Below, one piece after another: positions 14,849 to 64,000 of a stretch of 64,000 nt of DNA. A model generated the notes under the pieces. It saw only the letters and a list, made by a program, of their open reading frames with translations. It did no database searches and was not told the origin of the DNA. The position numbers were made by a program, and so were the translations under genes. This DNA comes from Achromobacter deleyi (GTDB taxonomy: Bacteria; Pseudomonadota; Gammaproteobacteria; Burkholderiales; Burkholderiaceae_B): NCBI RefSeq assembly GCF_016127315.1, contig NZ_CP065997.1:2170001-2234000 (forward strand), given 5' to 3'. The first letter of the stretch is position 1, and each line of letters starts with the position of its first letter.

Positions 14849-17028
14849 GCGCGCTCTCCCAGGTCGGCCAGCACGTCGTTCAGGCCGGCGGTGACTTCCT
14901 CGGTGTCGGCGAAGGCCGCGCGTTCCAGCACCTTGGAGATGCTGGGCGAGGCCTCGCCGCCGGTGACGCGCTTGACCGGCTGGTCGAGCCAGTCGAAGTA
15001 GCGGCGCTGGATCTCGTCGGCCAGCATGGCGCCGTACGAGGTGCCGCGCGCGCCCTGTTCGACGATCAGCACGTTGTTGGTCTTCTGGATGCTGGCGCCG
15101 ATGGTGTCCCAGTCCAGGCTGGCGCGGTCCAGCGTGCGCAGGTCGATGACTTCGGCGTCGACGCCGGTCTCTTCGGCGGCCTTGAGCGCGCGGCTGACCA
15201 TCGACAGGTAGGTCAGCACCGTGACCTTGGAACCGCCGCGGCGCACGCGCGCCTTGCCAAACGGAATGGCGTAGTCCAGGTCGCCGTCGGGGACCTCGCC
15301 CGACGAGGCGTACAGGTCGACGTGCTCGATCACCAGCACCGGGTCCTTGGAGGCCAGCGCGGTGTTCATCAGGCCGATGTACTCATACGGCGTGGACGGC
15401 GCGACGATGCGCCAGCCCGGGGCCGTGGCGAAGACGCCGGCCGGGTCCATCGAGTGCTGCGAGCCGTAGCCCGTGCCCATCGCGACCTTGGTGCGCAGCA
15501 CGAACGGCACGTCGATGTCGCCGCCGAACATGTGGCGGGCCTTGCCGATCTGGTTGAAGATCTGGTCGGCCGCGACCCACATGAAGTCGGGGTACATGAA
15601 TTCCACCACCGGCTTGTAGCGGCCGTCCATGGCCAGGCCGCCGCCCAGGCCGGCAAAGGCGTTCTCGGAGATCGGCGTGCCCAGCACGCGGTCGGGGTAC
15701 TTGTCCTTCAGGCCGCGGGTGGCGCCGTTGGTGCCGCCCTTCAGGCGGTGTACGTCCTCGCCCAGCACCACCACGCCGGGGTCGGTTTCCATGCGGCGGT
15801 CGAGCACGTCGGCCACCGCGTCCACGAACTTGCGCTCGGCGCGGGCGCCGGCGTAGTCGGCGGCGTCCTGGTAGCGCAGATCGGCCAGTTCCGAGCCGTC
15901 GCTGCGCAGGCCCACGTCGCGGAAGTCGGGGCGCGGCCACAGGTCGGCGCGCACGCGGCGTTTGCCGCCGTCGGCGGCCTCGGTCAGGCGGCCCGACACG
16001 TCCTTCATCACGTCCTTGCAGCGCTGGCGCAGGGCGTCGACTTCGGCCTGGGTGATGAGCTGGCGGCCGATCATCTCGGCGGCGATCTTGTCGAGCGGAT
16101 CGCGGCGGCGCCACTGCGCCTCTTCGTCCTTGCTGCGGTAGCCGAAGGCGCTGCCGGGGAAGGGGCCGTTCTGGTGGAAGAAGCGGTAGACGTCCACCTC
16201 GATGATGGTGGGGCCGTTGCCGGCGCGCATGTGCGCCACGGCTTCCGACATGGCCAGGTGCACGGCCAGCGGATCCATGCCGTCGACCTGCCAGGCCGGG
16301 ATGTTGAAGGCCTGGCCGCGGGCCGACAGGCGCGGCTCGGCGGTTGATTCCTCGACCGTGGTGGACACGGCGTAGCGGTTGTTCTCGATGAAGAAGCACA
16401 GCGGCGTCTTCCACGCGGCGGTCAGGTTCATCGTCTCGAGCACCGAGCCGATGTTGACGGCGCCGTCGCCGAAGTACGTCACCGCCACGCGGTCGGTGCC
16501 GGCGTGGTGATGGGCCCAGGCCGCGCCGGCCGCCAGCGGCACGCCGCCGCCGACGATGGCGTTGGTGCCGAGCGCGCCGGCTTCCAGCCAGCGCAGGTGC
16601 ATGCTGCCGCCACGGCCGCGGCAGTAGCCTTGCGCCAGGCCCATGATCTCGGCCAGGGTCTTGTGCAGCACTTCGTCGATGGCGGGCGTGAGCGGGTTGC
16701 GCGGGTCCAGGCCCAGCGGCGCGACGTGTTGCAGCGCCTTGGCCAGGAACTGGTGGTGGCCGCGGTGCGAGCCGTTGATCTGGTCGCCGGCGCCCAGCGC
16801 CAGCACCGAGCCGACGGCGCCGCCTTCCTGGCCGACCGACGAGTGGGCGGGGCCGTGCACCAGGCCTTCGGCGGCCAAGTCCAGCACCGCTTCCTCGAAG
16901 GCGCGGATCCAGTGCAGCTGCGTCAGCATGGTGGCCAGCAGCGCGGGGTCGGCCTGTTGCCAGTCCGAGGCCTCGACCGTCAGTTGCCGCCAGGGCGCCT
17001 GGGAGCCAAGCGGTTGGTAGGTGGCCAT
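14845..17028 (-). CDS. Fused 2-oxoacid dehydrogenase E1 (alpha+beta subunits in one chain)
   Basis: A 727-residue thiamine-diphosphate enzyme that decarboxylates a 2-oxoacid (or acetoin-like substrate) and acylates the E2 lipoyl group. The first ~330 residues are an E1-alpha: GRGGSMHLR near 137 and the ThDP motif GDGAVNIGSVLETMNL ending in ENN near 215. The last ~330 are an E1-beta: GEDVHRLKGGTNGAT near 425, PISENAFAGLGGGLAM near 450 and VEFMYPDFMW near 475. In most relatives these are separate proteins, and here a ~50-residue linker fuses them. It is the first gene of the E1-VOC-E2-E3 block; the MITE-like element lies just upstream. Acetoin, pyruvate or branched-chain-like substrates all remain possible. 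Confidence 0.93.
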   Translation of the reverse strand: MATYQPLGSQAPWRQLTVEASDWQQADPALLATMLTQLHWIRAFEEAVLDLAAEGLVHGPAHSSVGQEGGAVGSVLALGAGDQINGSHRGHHQFLAKALQHVAPLGLDPRNPLTPAIDEVLHKTLAEIMGLAQGYCRGRGGSMHLRWLEAGALGTNAIVGGGVPLAAGAAWAHHHAGTDRVAVTYFGDGAVNIGSVLETMNLTAAWKTPLCFFIENNRYAVSTTVEESTAEPRLSARGQAFNIPAWQVDGMDPLAVHLAMSEAVAHMRAGNGPTIIEVDVYRFFHQNGPFPGSAFGYRSKDEEAQWRRRDPLDKIAAEMIGRQLITQAEVDALRQRCKDVMKDVSGRLTEAADGGKRRVRADLWPRPDFRDVGLRSDGSELADLRYQDAADYAGARAERKFVDAVADVLDRRMETDPGVVVLGEDVHRLKGGTNGATRGLKDKYPDRVLGTPISENAFAGLGGGLAMDGRYKPVVEFMYPDFMWVAADQIFNQIGKARHMFGGDIDVPFVLRTKVAMGTGYGSQHSMDPAGVFATAPGWRIVAPSTPYEYIGLMNTALASKDPVLVIEHVDLYASSGEVPDGDLDYAIPFGKARVRRGGSKVTVLTYLSMVSRALKAAEETGVDAEVIDLRTLDRASLDWDTIGASIQKTNNVLIVEQGARGTSYGAMLADEIQRRYFDWLDQPVKRVTGGEASPSISKVLERAAFADTEEVTAGLNDVLADLGERA

Positions 17029-17064
17029 GAATGAATCTCCAGAATGTAGGTAAGCGTCGATGCG

Positions 17065-17336
17065 TTAGGGCCTGTTCACACTAAAAGGAGCCTCGCACAG
17101 GCCGGTAATCGGCCGCCAGGCTAGGCGCGGTCTCCGCCGCGTGGCCGTGCCACGCAAGGGGAGCGCAACGACGCCTGGCGGCCGATTACCGGCCTGCCCG
17201 AAGGGTGAGCGCCCAAATGAGCGCCTCTCTGCGTTGCAAATGCTCGCCGTGGTCCCGCCACGACGGCGCTTTGCGCCTTGATAGGCGCTCATTTGGGTGC
17301 TCATGCGAGGCTCCTTTTAGTGTGAACAGGCCCTAA
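17065..17336. mobile_element. MITE-like element, 272 bp with 33-bp perfect terminal inverted repeats
   Basis: Terminal repeats 17065-17097 and 17304-17336 are perfect complements (outer sequence TTAGGGCCTGTTCACAC). Inside are two further nested inverted repeats: a perfect 24-bp pair (17098-17121 with 17173-17196) and a 20-bp pair with one mismatch (17207-17226 with 17283-17302). The ends are followed by TA on both sides, consistent with a TA target duplication. There is no transposase. A 79-codon open frame inside is a by-product of the palindromes. Size and structure fit a non-autonomous element mobilised by a transposase elsewhere; the ends recall IS5/IS427-type elements from memory only. 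It lies between the SDR and E1 genes of one operon. Confidence 0.85.
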
Positions 17337-18121
17337 AGGTAGCTGTAGCGGCTCCAGCCGCCATCGGCCACCAGGGTGTGTCCGGTGATGTAGGCGGCCT
17401 GGCTGGAGGCCAGGAACACCGCCAGGTCGGCCATTTCGGCCGGTTGCGCCAGGCGCCGCAGCGGCGTGCGCTGCTTGAGGCGCTCGGGGTCGAGGCGGCC
17501 GCGCGCGGCCAGGTCGCGCACCAGGTCGGTCTCGACGTAGCCGGGCGCCAGCGCGTTCACGCGCACGCCCGCCGGGCCCCATTCCACCGCCAGGGTCTCG
17601 GTCAGCAGCACCACCGCGCCCTTGGTGGCGCAGTAGGCGGCGCGGTCGGGCGCGGCCACCACGCCATACATGGAGGCCAGGTTGATGATGCAGCCCTCGC
17701 CCTTGGGCACCATGCGGCGGCCCGCGGCCTGGGCGCACAGGAATACGCCGGTCAGGTTGATGTCGACCGCGCGGCGCCATTCCTCGGGCGTGACCTCCAG
17801 CGATGGCTTGTTGGCCGAGATGCCGGCGTTGTTGACCAGCACGTCGATGCCGCCCCAGGCCTGCTCGACCTGGGCGAAGGCGCGTTCGACGGCGTCGGCG
17901 TCGGTGACCGAGGCCTGCGCGGCCAGGGCCTCGCCGCCGGCCGCGCGCAGCCCGGCCACGGCCGCGTCCAGCGCTACCGGATCCATGTCCAGCAGCGCCA
18001 CCCGCGCGCCCTGGCGCACGAACGCCTCGGCCGTGGCGTAGCCGATGCCTTTGGCGCCGCCGGTGATCACCACGTTCTTGCCGCGCAGATCGGCGTGGCG
18101 TACTTCAGGGGTATTGTCCAA
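17333..18121 (-). CDS. SDR-family NAD(P)-dependent oxidoreductase
   Basis: A 262-residue short-chain dehydrogenase/reductase oxidising or reducing a hydroxyl/carbonyl group. Rossmann motif GGAKGIG is near residue 18, NNAG near 92, and the catalytic Tyr and Lys are in YCATKGA near 158-162. The proposed start is TTG at 18121, with GAGG 8 nt upstream. No ATG or GTG fits the family N-terminus, and an in-frame ATG at 18229 lies inside livF. The stop codon TAG is provided by the end of the MITE-like element; without the insertion it would read TAA at the same place. It lies 28 bp downstream of livF, so it is part of the operon. Substrate unknown. Confidence 0.88.
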   Translation of the reverse strand: MDNTPEVRHADLRGKNVVITGGAKGIGYATAEAFVRQGARVALLDMDPVALDAAVAGLRAAGGEALAAQASVTDADAVERAFAQVEQAWGGIDVLVNNAGISANKPSLEVTPEEWRRAVDINLTGVFLCAQAAGRRMVPKGEGCIINLASMYGVVAAPDRAAYCATKGAVVLLTETLAVEWGPAGVRVNALAPGYVETDLVRDLAARGRLDPERLKQRTPLRRLAQPAEMADLAVFLASSQAAYITGHTLVADGGWSRYSYL

Positions 18122-60792: not shown

Positions 60793-61494
60793 TCACAGAT
60801 CCTCGCTGCGCCACACCTTCAGCACGCGCCCGAAAATCTGCAGGTCCATGTCTTCGGTGATGTCCCAGGCATCGTATTTGGTGTTCTCGGACTTGGCGCG
60901 GATCAGCAGGCCCTGGGCGCTGGGAATGCGTTGCAGGCGCTTGATGAAGCCCTCGTTGCCGACGCGAAAGAAGAACACGCCGTCGACCTCCGCCTTGACC
61001 ACGCCCAGGTCCACCAGCAGTGGATCGCCCGGGTTGTACATGGGCCGCATGCTGTCGCCGAAACCGGTCACCACGCACAGGTTGGCGGCCGTGGTGTAGT
61101 GGCGCAGGTTCTTGTGCAGCCATTCCTGGCTGACGCGCAGGCTCTGGATCACGCCGGGCTGGTCGCGCAGTTCGACGCCCGCGCCCATGGCGCCGCCGGT
61201 ATCGAAGCGGGGGATGCGCAGATCGTCGTCCGCGCCGTGGTCCCTGCGCGCGGTGTCGCTACCGCCGGCATCGGCCAGCACGATGTCCGGCGGATACTGC
61301 GCCGACTCGTCCAGCAATTGCTCGAGTGACAGCCCCAATCCGGCCGCCAGGCGGGCCGCGTACTTGGAGCGTTCGCTGTCGCGCCCCTCGAGCGCGGCGA
61401 TGGTGCCCACGCCGACGCCCGTGCGCGCTTCCAGCTGTTCCAGGGTAAGACCGAGAGCGGCGCGGTAGCGCCTGATTTGTTTTCCGAGAGCCAT
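60793..61494 (-). CDS. Phage-type S24 repressor (CI/LexA-like)
   Basis: A 233-residue self-cleaving repressor. The XRE helix-turn-helix is at about 3-60 (LGKQIRRYRAALGLTLEQLEARTGV). The S24 peptidase domain follows with nucleophile in GDSMRPMY (near 146) and general-base Lys in GFIKRLQR (near 181). ATG 61494 is the family start; an upstream in-frame ATG 61536 lies in the operator region. It faces away from the tail genes, and its own gene ends against the DUF1254 lipoprotein gene. It is expected to repress the divergent promoter at 61540 and to be lost by RecA-stimulated autocleavage under DNA damage. Confidence 0.92.
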   Translation of the reverse strand: MALGKQIRRYRAALGLTLEQLEARTGVGVGTIAALEGRDSERSKYAARLAAGLGLSLEQLLDESAQYPPDIVLADAGGSDTARRDHGADDDLRIPRFDTGGAMGAGVELRDQPGVIQSLRVSQEWLHKNLRHYTTAANLCVVTGFGDSMRPMYNPGDPLLVDLGVVKAEVDGVFFFRVGNEGFIKRLQRIPSAQGLLIRAKSENTKYDAWDITEDMDLQIFGRVLKVWRSEDL

Positions 61495-61522
61495 GGTGTC
61501 AACGCTAAACAGTTGTGGAAAA

Positions 61523-61568
61523 TTGTGCAACAACAAGTGTTGAAAACAGGATTATACATTTGTAGAAT
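61523..61568 (+). promoter_or_regulatory. Repressor-controlled promoter with overlapping palindromes
   Basis: A near-consensus sigma-70 promoter: TTGAAA at 61540-61545, 17-bp spacer, TAGAAT at 61563-61568. Palindromes TTGTGCAACAA (61523-61533), CAACA-AG-TGTTG (61531-61542) and TACATTTGTA (61555-61564) overlap the -35 and -10, as expected for operators of the divergent S24 repressor. A further 17-bp palindrome GGTAGCG-TAT-CGCTACC lies at 61618-61634. Confidence 0.75.
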
Positions 61569-61767
61569 CTTACCCATGGATTACCCAAAACGTGTGCTGT
61601 TATCAGACGGAAGCGTGGGTAGCGTATCGCTACCAAAGGGCTTCTCCCCCTCATCCATCCGGACCGCCGCAACGGCGCTCCGCAACACCGGCGCCCGGGC
61701 GGCGCCACCCCGGCAGCGTCCACCAGCGACGGACACCGGCATCGAACTCAACGGCAAGGAGCGGCAA

Positions 61768-62358
61768 ATGAATCAGGCAGGAAACATGGCATTGCAGGCA
61801 CCGCAGGGCTGGGTCGCGGCGGCATCGCAGGCGGGCGCCGCCGTCGCGCGCTCCTTCGCGTCGCGGCCGGCGGAACGCGCCGGCCGGCCGCAGGCGGCGC
61901 AGGGCCAGAACCAGAAGGGGCAGAGCATGACGCGGGAAGAATCGGATCAGGTCGAAGCGCTGATCATGGAGTGGTACCACTGGAGCCGCGGCTACCGGCC
62001 CGCGCTGGGCGTTGGCCGGGTCTCGGCGTTCGCGCGCGGCATGACGGCCAACGAGGCCTATGACGATGAAGACGTCGACACCCGCCTGGCCGCGGCGCGC
62101 GGCGAGCAGACCGAGTTGTGTATCGACGAGCTGCCGTGGCAGCAGCGTTCGGCGATCGGCGTGCACGCCGGCAACCGCGCGGCCGGCGCCCGCGTCTTCA
62201 GCAACCCGCGCCTGACGCCCGAGCAGCAGCACGCCGCGTATCAGGAAGCCAAGGTCGCACTGCTGCCGGCATTGCGCCGGCGCGGGCTGGTGACGGCGCC
62301 GCAACTGCGACACGCCGATCGCGCAAAAGCTTGCGGCGCGCGGGCCACGTCCGCATAA
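61768..62358 (+). CDS. Phage Q-antiterminator-like protein
   Basis: A 196-residue protein whose core (about residues 55-160) has VEALIMEWYHWSRGYRPALG, then acidic DDEDVDTRLAAARGEQTELCIDELP, then NRAAGARVFSNPRL. This layout is seen in late-gene antiterminators of lambdoid and Burkholderia phages. The resemblance is from memory and modest, so the function is a proposal. Start ATG 61768 has a strong AAGGAG 6 nt upstream. An in-frame ATG at 61576 sits right at the predicted transcription start and would give a leaderless 260-residue form, but its extra 64 codons lack the local codon bias. Its 3' end overlaps a promoter, and two terminators follow. Confidence 0.7.
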   Translation: MNQAGNMALQAPQGWVAAASQAGAAVARSFASRPAERAGRPQAAQGQNQKGQSMTREESDQVEALIMEWYHWSRGYRPALGVGRVSAFARGMTANEAYDDEDVDTRLAAARGEQTELCIDELPWQQRSAIGVHAGNRAAGARVFSNPRLTPEQQHAAYQEAKVALLPALRRRGLVTAPQLRHADRAKACGARATSA

Positions 62359-62359
62359 T
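62331..62359 (+). promoter_or_regulatory. Candidate late promoter overlapping the stop of the Q-like gene
   Basis: TTGCGG (62331-62336), 17-bp spacer, CATAAT (62354-62359). The -10 matches consensus at 5 of 6 positions, the -35 only at TTG. Transcription would start near 62366 and meet the first terminator about 45 nt later, the same arrangement as lambda pR'-tR', where Q acts on RNA polymerase paused just after the promoter. Confidence 0.55.
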
Positions 62360-62409
62360 TGAGTCGTCGGGCCAAGTTGCGCCCGAAGAGAATCTGAACG
62401 TACCGACCA

Positions 62410-62439
62410 AGCCCCTCGGCAATTGCCGCGGGGCTTTTT
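62410..62439 (+). terminator. Intrinsic terminator 1 before the tail genes
   Basis: Stem AGCCCC/GGGGCT enclosing an inner CGGC-AATT-GCCG hairpin with one mismatch between them, followed by TTTTT. Lies 51 bp after the stop of the Q-like gene. Confidence 0.88.
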
Positions 62440-62474
62440 CATGGCCGCTCCGGATTCCCGGAAACGCCGATGTT

Positions 62475-62500
62475 GCCCGCCCCTGGCGGGCTTTTTTTTT
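62475..62500 (+). terminator. Intrinsic terminator 2 directly before the tail tube gene
   Basis: Perfect 7-bp stem GCCCGCC/GGCGGGC with a 3-nt loop followed by nine T residues (62492-62500), a model intrinsic terminator. It ends exactly where the ribosome-binding site GGAG of the tail tube gene begins, so the tail genes can only be transcribed by read-through. Confidence 0.93.
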
Positions 62501-62510
62501 GGAGTCTGCA

Positions 62511-62978
62511 ATGGCAGGTACTACCGTTTCGCAATTCGTTCAAACCCAGGGCACCCAGTTGGAAGTGTCGACCACGGCCACCGAAGACCTGGGCGCCGCC
62601 GGCCTGAGCTACGCCGATCTGGCCATCACCATCAAGGACCCGAACTTCCAGGGCGGCCAGACCACCGAGATCGACGTCACCGTGCTCAAGTCCACCGCCA
62701 AGGAATACGCCCTGGGCCTGGACGACAGCGGCACCTTCAGCATGGCCGGCAACTGGAAGGCCGGCGATCCCGCCCAGAAGGCGCTGGTGGCCGCGCGCAG
62801 CGACAAGAAGACCCGCGCCTTCCGCGTGACCTTCGCCGACGGCGCCAAGTTCGAGTTCCTCGGCCTGGTGACGCAATACCAGTGGCAAGGCCAGCTGGAC
62901 AACGTCGTGTCCGCCACGTTCAACGTGCGCGTCACCGGCGCCGTCAAGCTGACCGACGCGCCCGCCAACGGGGGCTGA
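62511..62978 (+). CDS. Phage tail tube protein
   Basis: A 155-residue major tail tube protein of long-tailed, non-contractile phages (gpV-like). It opens MAGTTVSQFVQTQGTQLEVS. It has the central GTFSMAGNW and the KFEFLGLVTQYQWQGQLDNVVSATFNVRVTG C-terminal strand pattern typical of tail tube subunits that stack into hexameric rings. GGAG sits 7 nt before the ATG. It is the first structural gene after the two terminators and is followed 5 bp later by the tail chaperone gene. Confidence 0.85.
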   Translation: MAGTTVSQFVQTQGTQLEVSTTATEDLGAAGLSYADLAITIKDPNFQGGQTTEIDVTVLKSTAKEYALGLDDSGTFSMAGNWKAGDPAQKALVAARSDKKTRAFRVTFADGAKFEFLGLVTQYQWQGQLDNVVSATFNVRVTGAVKLTDAPANGG

Positions 62979-62983
62979 ACGCC

Positions 62984-63457
62984 ATGACGGACACGTCGAT
63001 CAATTCCTCTGCCCGCGCCGCGGGCCTGCGCGGCCTGGCGGTCGATCCGCTGGCCGGCTTCGCCCATGAAACCGTGACCGTGCCGCAATGGCAGGACGCG
63101 CGCGTCATCGTGCGCGCGCCCAGCGCCGGCGACCACCTGTTCCACATCCGCGCGATCTGGGCGGCCGCGGGCGTGGTGCCGGGCGAGGACAACGAGGTGG
63201 TGCGCGCCAAGCTGGACGCGCCGGGCGTGGACTACACCCACGCCTCGGCCAGCCTGCTGGTGCGCACGCTGTTCGAGCAGACCGAGCAGGGGCCGCGGCG
63301 CGTCTTCGGCGACGAGGACGTCGCCGTGGTGGCCGCGGCCTACGGGCTGGCGCACGCCACGCTGGTGGCCAAGGCGATCGAGCTGGGCAACCTCGGGGAG
63401 GGCGCGCCGGAGCGCGCAAAAAAGCCCTCCAGGAAACGCCAGACCTCCGTTTCCTGA
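62984..63457 (+). CDS. Tail assembly chaperone G (zero-frame product)
   Basis: A 157-residue chaperone that binds the tape-measure protein during tail assembly, in the same position as lambda gpG. The product ends ERAKKPSRKRQTSVS at a stop at 63455-63457. That stop lies inside the hairpin of the -1 frameshift signal. A fraction of ribosomes slips at 63418-63424 to make the longer G-T product. Confidence 0.85.
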   Translation: MTDTSINSSARAAGLRGLAVDPLAGFAHETVTVPQWQDARVIVRAPSAGDHLFHIRAIWAAAGVVPGEDNEVVRAKLDAPGVDYTHASASLLVRTLFEQTEQGPRRVFGDEDVAVVAAAYGLAHATLVAKAIELGNLGEGAPERAKKPSRKRQTSVS

Positions 63458-63747
63458 TGGTCCTGGCGCTTCGACTGGGGCGCACGCTGGGCGAGTTGAT
63501 GGACACCATCGACACCCGTGAAGTGTCGCTGTGGCGCGAGTGGGACCGCACGTCTCCGTTGGGAGACGAACGGGCCGACGTGCTCACGGCCAGCCTGGCC
63601 GCCACGGTGGCGCAGGCGGCGGGCGCCAAGTTGCGCGCCACCGACATGCTGGTGCGCTGGGGCGCGCAAGACGAGGAACCTCCCGCCGAGGCGGGGGCGG
63701 ACGTGTTGAAGGCGTTCCTGATGTCGAAGGTCAAGAAGGGGTCTTGA
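62984..63747 (+). CDS. Tail assembly chaperone GT (-1 frameshift product)
   Basis: Read as 62984-63424 then 63424-63747, giving 254 residues. The T part begins ALQETPDLRFLMVLALRLGRTLGELMD and continues SLWREWDRTSPLGDERAD, matching the DUF4035/gpT-type domain that follows G in siphophage tails. It has no separate start with a ribosome-binding site, so it is only made by frameshifting. The GT/G ratio controls tail assembly in lambda. Confidence 0.85.
63418..63456 (+). promoter_or_regulatory. Programmed -1 ribosomal frameshift signal
   Basis: The heptamer A AAA AAG in the reading frame of G (63418-63424), then a 5-nt spacer, then a perfect 9-bp stem CAGGAAACG/CGTTTCCTG with a 9-nt loop (63430-63456). 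Slippery site, spacing and stimulator all match the classical bacterial and phage arrangement. Confidence 0.92.
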
Positions 63748-63804
63748 CGACGTGTCCGGCCCGCGCAAGCGGGCCGGAAGCGGATCTATGAGAGGTATAG
63801 GACC

Positions 63805-64000
63805 ATGGCAAACAACAACAACGCCGCGAACATCGAGGCGGAAAACAGGGCGCTCAGACAGAACACCGTCGAGCTCAATCGCAATGCGTCGGCCCGGCGG
63901 GCGTGGGAAAGCGCCGTTGCGAGGGCCGCGACCACGTGCCAGAAAAGCAACGACACCACTGATAAGGGCACCGACGGCAAGAAAAAGTCGACGGACGCGC
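63805..64000 (+). CDS. Gene at the tape-measure position, N-terminal 65 residues (runs off right edge)
   Basis: Opens MANNNNAANIEAENRALRQN and continues as a polar, Lys/Thr/Asp-rich chain to the window edge. The first ~45 residues could form a short coiled coil. In siphophage-like tail clusters the tape-measure gene follows the frameshifted chaperone, so this may be it, but no tape-measure motif is visible in the part seen. AGAGG about 10 nt upstream supports ATG 63805. Confidence 0.6.
   Translation, partial: MANNNNAANIEAENRALRQNTVELNRNASARRAWESAVARAATTCQKSNDTTDKGTDGKKKSTDA

Follow-up and report, generated by a model that had tools for sequence, protein, structure and literature searches.

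A stretch of 64,000 nucleotides from the chromosome of Achromobacter deleyi (positions 2170001-2234000, G000:C1, of a 6.99-Mb single-contig genome; hereafter the window) carries at its right end a locus that probably encodes a short, headless, non-contractile phage tail. We interpret this locus as an F-type-like tailocin that was domesticated from a lambda-like (siphophage) prophage and is coupled to a contractile tailocin encoded elsewhere in the chromosome. The argument is built on the gene content of the locus, its conservation among Achromobacter species, a palindrome that it shares with the contractile locus, and the co-occurrence of the two loci. The exact match in distribution between the contractile sheath gene and the repressor and Q-like genes of this locus, together with the palindrome common to both, is new here.

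Gene content of the locus

The locus overruns the right end of the window, and we therefore added the downstream chromosome and counted coordinates on from the window, so that positions past 64000 continue its numbering. In total it covers 14.2 kb (60793-74984), with its right end outside the window at G000:C1:2244984. On the left it is flanked by a DUF1254/DUF1214 gene and a ureidoglycolate lyase-like gene, and on the right by a host LysR gene at 75105. An S24 repressor gene on the minus strand is followed by a divergent promoter, a Q-like gene and two terminators, and then by V, G/GT, H, M, a fibre gene, L, K, I, J, x1, x2 and a second I, with intergenic gaps of at most 62 bp within the tail operon. 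Family or homology identifies the open reading frames (ORFs) from the repressor to the second I as genes of regulators or of the tail, with the exception of x1 and x2. These two have no assigned function, and their homologues lie just after J in the Bordetella phage vB_BbrS_PHB09 (MN103401; hereafter PHB09).

A preliminary description of the window, made from its sequence alone, had placed a tail tube, a frameshifted chaperone and a tape measure directly after the Q-like gene, and family searches bear this out. The tube V (62511-62978; 155 aa) matches the PHROG major tail protein family (6.9e-34); it is 99% identical in seven of the eight other species that carry tail genes and 93% identical in the remaining one, G025. 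The chaperone G (62984-63457) matches Phage_TAC_1 (7.1e-26), and the T part of the G-T fusion, read in the -1 frame (63424-63747), matches Phage_tail_T (PF06223, 8.9e-15 for 63499-63747). The -1 frameshift site A AAA AAG (63418-63424) is conserved in all 11 sequences compared, being kept in 9/9 tail-bearing Achromobacter loci, in a locus of another genus (L061) and in PHB09. The tape measure H (63805-65088) is 427 aa long, of which the first 65 aa lie inside the window, and it matches PHROG tape-measure families (down to 1.4e-18). It is followed by M (65091-65429), an 880-aa fibre with a Peptidase_S74 (endosialidase-type chaperone) domain (65435-68077), L (68080-68808), K with JAB and NlpC/P60 domains (68811-69590), I (69587-70192) and J (70189-73821), the last two with ATG starts read by eye, and then by x1 (73827-74198), x2 (74179-74391) and the second I (74388-74984). 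V, G, T and H are on the plus strand. A lambda-type tube, the G/GT frameshift, M, L, K, I and J are present in the locus, and a sheath is not. The diverged second gpI gene is the last gene of the locus in 9/9 carriers of the tail genes and has a ratio of nonsynonymous to synonymous substitution rates (dN/dS) of 0.10-0.32.

No terminase, portal or capsid gene was recognised between the promoter and the tube, in agreement with the preliminary description, and across the whole locus no integrase, terminase, portal, capsid, holin, lysin, spanin or tail terminator was recognised. When the head, tail-terminator and lysis proteins of PHB09 were compared with the nine tail-bearing Achromobacter loci, nothing fell below E 0.05, and the same was true of the lysis and tail-terminator proteins of L075, a related locus in another genus of the family. 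The best of these comparisons was a terminase match in L055 at E 0.054. Lysis genes hidden in the locus were considered and rejected, as the lysis proteins of PHB09 and L075 have no match below E 0.2 in the nine loci. The possibility that carriers have an L075-type GH19 endolysin outside the locus was likewise rejected: at E 1e-20 it was found in 5/43 Achromobacter genomes, none of them a carrier.

As is expected of a tailocin, no replication, packaging or head genes were recognised in the locus; a lysis cassette within the cluster, also expected of a tailocin, was not found at this locus. The preliminary description had predicted that both tail and lysis genes would follow beyond 64000 and had named their absence as evidence against a headless tailocin. 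The tape measure, M, fibre, L, K, I and J are there, with no recognisable head genes, and holin, lysin and spanin were not found, so that half of that contrary evidence did appear. What stands of the earlier reading is a conserved headless locus in nine species; what falls is the expectation of lysis genes of its own, for which a cassette was found at a contractile locus.

An unlinked contractile tailocin locus occurs in the same species

A second headless locus lies at 6574032-6589979 of the same genome (loci L130 and L131), 4.4 Mb from the first (2.6 Mb the other way if the chromosome is circular). It carries its own S24 repressor, a tail-terminator protein, a sheath (PHROG tail sheath, 2.2e-118), tube, tape measure, baseplate hub and fibre, followed by a phrog_1024 protein (holin-like by eye), a lysin-like protein and a spanin-like gene. 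With the head proteins of PHB09 as probe and the remainder examined by eye, no head genes were found there. We read this locus as a contractile (R-type) tailocin with a lysis cassette. Its repressor is 72% identical to the window repressor over 151 residues within the protease half, and the DNA-binding half did not align.

Among 43 Achromobacter species, the sheath occurs in ten, and these are exactly the ten that carry the repressor and Q-like genes (G000, G006, G009, G011, G018, G020, G025, G029, G031 and G040); at E 1e-30 it was found in 0/33 of the others. The contractile locus was read in 10/10 carriers. Lysis genes adjoin it in eight, and the contigs of G006 and G018 end first. We also searched for the lysin-like protein, using as query a PHB09-kind protein from the genome's own prophage at 4.29 Mb. 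At least one match was obtained in 29/43 genomes, that is, in 10/10 carriers and 19/33 others (p 0.018). This co-occurrence is weak because such genes also sit elsewhere, and the sheath is relied on instead; in the A. deleyi genome the other two places are a prophage-like region at 3.50 Mb and the contractile locus itself. The best fold model of the lysin-like protein has a pLDDT of 74.7 (47-55 for the other four). Rows 1 and 3 of its PDB matches are endolysins (E 1.4 and 2.5), its best viral match (E 2.3e-3) is nameless, and two close relatives are named Lysozyme in UniRef. The predicted fold is at most suggestive of an endolysin.

The leader of the Q-like gene contains the palindrome GGTAGCG-TAT-CGCTACC (61618-61634), which starts 50 bp past the -10 box of the rightward promoter. 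The contractile control region holds three related sites, the clearest of which is GGTAGCG-ACT-CGCTACC. An exact search for GGTAGCGNNNCGCTACC in the 43 genomes returned 17 sites in 10 genomes, of which eight lie in the Q leader, nine in the contractile control region and none elsewhere. The reversed pattern, used as a control, gave seven sites in six genomes, with no carrier among these. If the composition of the window and 6.5 Mb a genome are assumed, chance would supply from ~0.9 (first-order Markov) to 3.9 (base composition) sites across the 43 genomes. The spacers are TAT or TTT in the Q leader and ACT or AGT in the contractile region, and this difference indicates that the sites are not simple copies of one another. 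Since the sites at the contractile locus sit in its divergent promoter, the repressor encoded there would be their natural ligand.

The fibre region of the contractile locus also carries a tyrosine recombinase gene (PF00589) beside inverted repeats (L130:15199-16305, 16892-17481), one pair with 60-nt arms 470 nt apart and another with 86-nt arms 2 nt apart. This arrangement is possibly an invertible tail-fibre switch.

Distribution, insertion site and selection

The short tape measure has a narrow distribution. Matches were obtained in 20/43 species, and only in nine of these is the match the short form (55-100% identity, open frames of 430-464 aa); the other 11 are part of much longer frames of 722-1082 aa. 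Tail genes are present in 9/43 species, eight of which have the same two host neighbours. In 36/43 species (all but G004, G014, G021, G023, G025, G033 and G035) the distance that separates the two flanking-gene matches was measurable. The eight species with the module have 12.1-15.1 kb there, one species has 1571 bp, and in 27 species the site is empty, at 10-156 bp. In the ninth carrier, G025, the repressor and Q-like genes lie beside the same lyase gene and are followed by an element of ~27 kb and then by the tail genes, with no DUF1254 match there. This element (L079 with L078) contains an integrase (PF00589) and, by eye, conjugation-like genes, and it separates the tail operon from the late promoter. 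In G018 (L060) the repressor, the Q-like gene and the leader palindrome are kept and the tail genes are deleted.

A single ancestral insertion, retained in most descendants, accounts for this distribution. The tree of the tail core repeats the deep branching obtained for the flanking genes, with L055-L058 apart and L056 beside L057, and the closest species are reshuffled.

To assess selection, dN/dS was calculated for the window against each locus in the seven other species whose tail genes occupy this site, with G018 added for the repressor and the Q-like gene. Values are low for V (0.02-0.13), L (0.05-0.14), K (0.06-0.10), J (0.09-0.20), I (0.12-0.17) and the second I (0.10-0.17), as they are in eight comparisons for the repressor (0.07-0.18) and the Q-like gene (0.08-0.19). 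They are looser for the tape measure (0.13-0.45), G (0.16-0.37), T (0.28-0.70), x2 (0.16-0.39), x1 (0.23-0.62), the fibre (0.11-0.80) and, in two comparisons, M (0.47 and 0.50). Comparison with G025 gives larger values (V 0.22, L 0.19, K 0.17, J 0.23, H 0.57). The locus is a conserved host locus under purifying selection rather than a mobile prophage.

The length of the tape measure points the same way. In a search over 5.8 billion proteins, in which candidates were restricted by design to 0.55-1.75 times the query length, 49 of the best 51 matches are 423-445 aa long; the exceptions are one of 394 aa on a short contig and one of 542 aa that is fused to M. From the 52nd match on, similarity drops and lengths vary. 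A tail that functions at a set length needs a tape measure whose length is nearly constant in this way. The closest named relatives are from Achromobacter dolens, A. insuavis and A. ruhlandii. A viral contig collection (IMG/VR, L086-L098, read as match tables) also holds relatives with 51-95% identity in entries of 5.5-14.3 kb; the same tape measure, filed there as viral, belongs to the host locus in the genomes that were read.

The control region

The repressor gene (60793-61494, minus strand) begins with an ATG at 61494, the start listed at 61536 being an upstream TTG. It encodes a protein of 233 aa with a helix-turn-helix (HTH) and an autoprotease domain, and its earlier assignment to the S24 family holds (Peptidase_S24 E=1.9e-13; PHROG 'transcriptional repressor' 1.8e-38). 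The HTH is nearly invariant in 10 species, and the serine of a GDSM motif and the lysine of an IKR motif are 37 residues apart in 10/10, as counted on the alignment. Control of the locus by DNA damage is predicted from this type of repressor and its Ser/Lys pair. In the tail-less species an alanine near the presumed cleavage site is replaced by proline. We considered that this might reflect loss of cleavage and dropped the idea, as the repressor of the contractile locus differs at the same position.

The strong divergent promoter with overlapping palindromes that had been noted in the window is confirmed. The rightward promoter TTGAAA-N17-TAGAAT (61540-61568, plus strand) is the sole sigma-70 match in 61400-62520, where shuffled sequence leads one to expect 0.1 +/- 0.3. 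The operator region, with its palindromes between the divergent promoters (61505-61545), has 91% invariant columns over 61500-61545 in eight loci, and the repeats that lie across the promoter (TTGTgcaACAA and CAACAagTGTTG, by eye) are almost invariant in nine aligned loci. The 20-base operator core occurs once in the genome of A. deleyi, and no further copy was found there at up to three mismatches.

The Q-like gene (61768-62358, plus strand; 196 aa) is a putative antiterminator gene. The earlier assignment survives in that a conserved ORF lies in the expected place; no family match was obtained in Pfam, PHROGs or NCBIfam. An AlphaFold model of the protein has a pLDDT of 67 and no PDB match below E 0.27, and the name 'Q' depends on gene position. 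Counted from 61576, with an in-frame leader ORF included, the protein would be 260 aa long. The short leader frame itself (61576-61644, MDYPKRVLLSDGSVGSVSL) is conserved and in frame with Q in nine aligned loci, and it may be a leader peptide, an N-terminal part of Q or a by-product of the operator. Homologues of the Q-like gene lie at seven other places in Achromobacter, and 15/43 genomes have any match. Three of the seven places were read. In two (L080 and L082) a terminase large subunit gene lies within 2 to 4 kb downstream; at L081, the third place, a terminase-like ORF was recognised by eye.

In phage lambda, antitermination by Q uses a regulator gene, its late promoter, terminators and the late operon in that order. 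The same layout is found here, with a weak late promoter recognised by eye. This candidate, TTGCGG-N17-CATAAT (62331-62359, plus strand), overlaps the Q stop codon and is followed by a conserved GGGC...GCCC element. It was identified in an alignment of eight loci and matches 8/12 consensus bases, which is below the threshold of the sigma-70 scan that missed it. Terminator 1 (62411-62439, plus strand; a GCCCC..GGGGC stem then T5) is present in 8/8 aligned loci and was not picked up by the scan; terminator 2 (62475-62500, plus strand; a GCCCGCC..GGCGGGC stem then T9) has a stem that is invariant in 8/8 and matched by the scan too. The operator, promoter, late promoter and both terminators are conserved in 8/8 aligned tail-bearing loci. 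The late promoter with its GGGC..GCCC element, also kept in 8/8, is gone in the tail-less G018, and so are the terminators. Terminator 1 shows one compensatory pair, and one of its positions is unpaired in 4/8 loci. Because 67/500 shuffles equalled this single pair, covariation proves nothing and conservation is the evidence. A third hairpin terminator lies further upstream in 5/8 loci and in G025, by eye.

A proposed mechanism

We infer the following sequence of events, from repressor release to lysis in trans. A lambda-like prophage would have entered the ancestor of one Achromobacter clade, and its tail part would have been retained as a host locus. The S24 repressor would hold the rightward promoter until DNA damage led to self-cleavage, in the manner of LexA and CI, as its domain and serine-lysine pair suggest. 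Transcription would then proceed through the leader into the Q-like gene. The leader palindrome would be an operator of the contractile-tailocin repressor (6.57-6.59 Mb), which when bound would block the transcript and so act as a second lock. Judging from the layout, the Q-like protein would let polymerase that starts at the late promoter read through both terminators and transcribe the tail genes. A tail of ~65 nm would then be assembled from V, G/GT, M, L, K, I, J and the 427-aa tape measure, the length of such tails being about 0.15 nm per tape-measure residue, and the fibre and the J tip would bind the target cell. A headless locus that lacks lysis genes has no means of its own to free what it makes. 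Release would therefore fall to the contractile locus, with its holin-like, lysin-like and spanin-like genes, and the second lock would ensure that both loci are on together.

It is an even question whether the two loci thus form a two-part weapon governed by an AND gate of two S24 repressors, in which tails are made only when the lysis cassette of the partner is derepressed and the locus has given up lysis genes of its own. If this is true, tailocins can depend on each other in trans, one locus giving tails and another release, with a shared operator to synchronize them. How cells avoid intracellular weapons that lack release would become testable, and headless loci without lysis genes, which are easily taken for remnants, may be working parts of pairs. 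Such a tailocin pair would be found in Achromobacter, a cystic-fibrosis opportunist.

Several observations weigh against the coupled tailocin or narrow its scope. The locus is known here from its genes, and the F-type assignment is made by gene content. The ten carriers resemble one clade, as judged from flanking-gene identities without a species tree; the co-occurrence may hence reflect one event on one branch, and the Fisher value of 5e-10 overstates it. Among 268 genomes of the wider family, searches for the tube matched six genomes from other genera and searches for the sheath matched five, with no genome matched by both, which means that the pairing is not general. Binding of the palindrome by the contractile repressor is deduced from the place of the site at that locus. 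The palindrome is also inexact in the leaders of G040 (one base) and G025 (two bases) and in the contractile locus of G018 (one base), and conservation of the leader as a peptide may be part of the reason for its constancy. The Q-like protein matches no known antiterminator family, and its fold model is of low confidence and has no significant match. The tree of the repressor and Q-like genes pairs L054 with L055, unlike the flanking genes, which indicates that some recombination occurred, and evolution is faster in G, T, H and x1, where dN/dS reaches 0.70. No gpU tail terminator was found in the locus; PHB09, L061 and L075, the latter two also headless, each keep one, and tail completion is left without an explanation. 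As for release, the lysin-like gene of the partner is of 'unknown function' in PHROGs with weak fold matches to endolysins, and prophage-like regions of the same genome carry related lysis genes that are a possible alternative source.

This last point is also where an uncoupled, stand-alone non-contractile tailocin finds its footing. Its tails would escape through chance lysis by a prophage or of the host, and the palindrome would be the site of some other common regulator or a relic of phage ancestry. Related lysin-like genes are indeed common (29/43 genomes), prophage-like regions of the same genome carry such genes, and the two repressors differ in their DNA-binding part. Yet the palindrome is restricted to two loci in 43 genomes, with arms kept and spacers different, and 0/10 carriers of this locus are without the contractile one, so that we regard the uncoupled tailocin as rather unlikely. 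It is improbable that the locus is a decaying prophage remnant whose tail operon is still fading after the loss of head and lysis genes. The lack of recognisable lysis genes and tail terminator would fit such decay, as would the loss of all tail genes in G018, the 27-kb insert between Q and the tail genes in G025 and the loss of most of the fibre in L054. Open tape-measure frames in nine species, their near-constant length, dN/dS well below 1 for most genes, and the maintenance of the frameshift site, promoters and terminators all speak against it, and an ordinary prophage fragment is contradicted by the conservation of the locus.

The tails might instead serve a role other than killing, such as receptor blocking, interference with incoming phages or protein delivery. 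A tail locus that lacks lysis genes of its own is unusual among the tailocins in the literature compared, and no role in this locus is known for x1, x2 or the second I. No cargo-like gene was recognised in the locus, however, and PADLOC gave no defence-family match for the five proteins scanned, and we consider a non-killing role very improbable. The coupled tailocin is the reading that we prefer, as more likely than not.

Comparison with known systems

In Pseudomonas aeruginosa PAO1 and PA14, R and F pyocins lie with holin and lysin in one cluster between trpE and trpG (PMC8609362). As there, the Achromobacter pair would consist of a non-contractile headless tail and a contractile one, under DNA-damage control that is established in P. 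aeruginosa and predicted here (PMC8609362). Unlike the single cluster with PrtR/PrtN in P. aeruginosa, the Achromobacter loci are unlinked and have separate S24 repressors and a common palindrome (PMC8609362). In P. chlororaphis a single cluster holds two tailocins and one lysis cassette; two tailocins with one cassette are a point of likeness, whereas in Achromobacter the loci are unlinked and one tailocin is non-contractile (PMC12090994). Rhizoviticin of Allorhizobium vitis is an F-type tailocin that derives from a headless prophage and has a repressor of the LexA family; it retains lysis genes, early phage genes and an integrase remnant, none of which was found in the Achromobacter locus (PMC10811719). 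Lysis genes are present in BceTMilo of Burkholderia, which is RecA-dependent (PMC5411513), and Pseudomonas tailocin clusters are described with a lysis cassette (PMC7815802). Achromobacter strain CF418 has one complete and three incomplete prophage regions, and in the portion of that article available tailocins are named only in general (PMC10457797). In the open-licence PMC literature, the longer listings of which were covered in part, we recognised no description of an Achromobacter tailocin, nor, in the same literature, of a Bordetella tailocin, of unlinked tailocins with lysis in trans or of a DUF3383-type tailocin.

The best match in a phage collection for tube and tape measure is PHB09 (V 70%, I 63%, J 60% identity), which has the same gene order, V-G-T-H-M-x-L-K-I-J-x1-x2. 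It differs in having terminase, portal, capsid, tail terminator, a spanin-like gene and a tape measure of 1191 aa. L075 (G107) and L061 (G081), in other genera of the family, combine a repressor with tail genes and are unmatched by the head proteins of PHB09. Their tape measures are short, a 468-aa ORF by position in L075 and about 337 aa in L061. L075 differs from the Achromobacter locus in its GH19 endolysin, spanin and tail terminator, and L061, which is cut by a contig end, in keeping a tail terminator. With L077 (G188) they make up further headless-looking lambda-like loci; one of the three lies downstream of a sigma factor-like gene (by eye), and one has a tube gene, a repressor-like ORF and a 1935-aa ORF at the place of the tape measure.

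The fibre gene varies in both presence and position. In A. ruhlandii only a 41-residue remnant is left of the fibre gene that otherwise stands between M and L, and in strain ASV32 a fibre gene, with a small gene behind it, is located after x2. We read the fibre position (L054 and L056) as a hotspot of fibre exchange.

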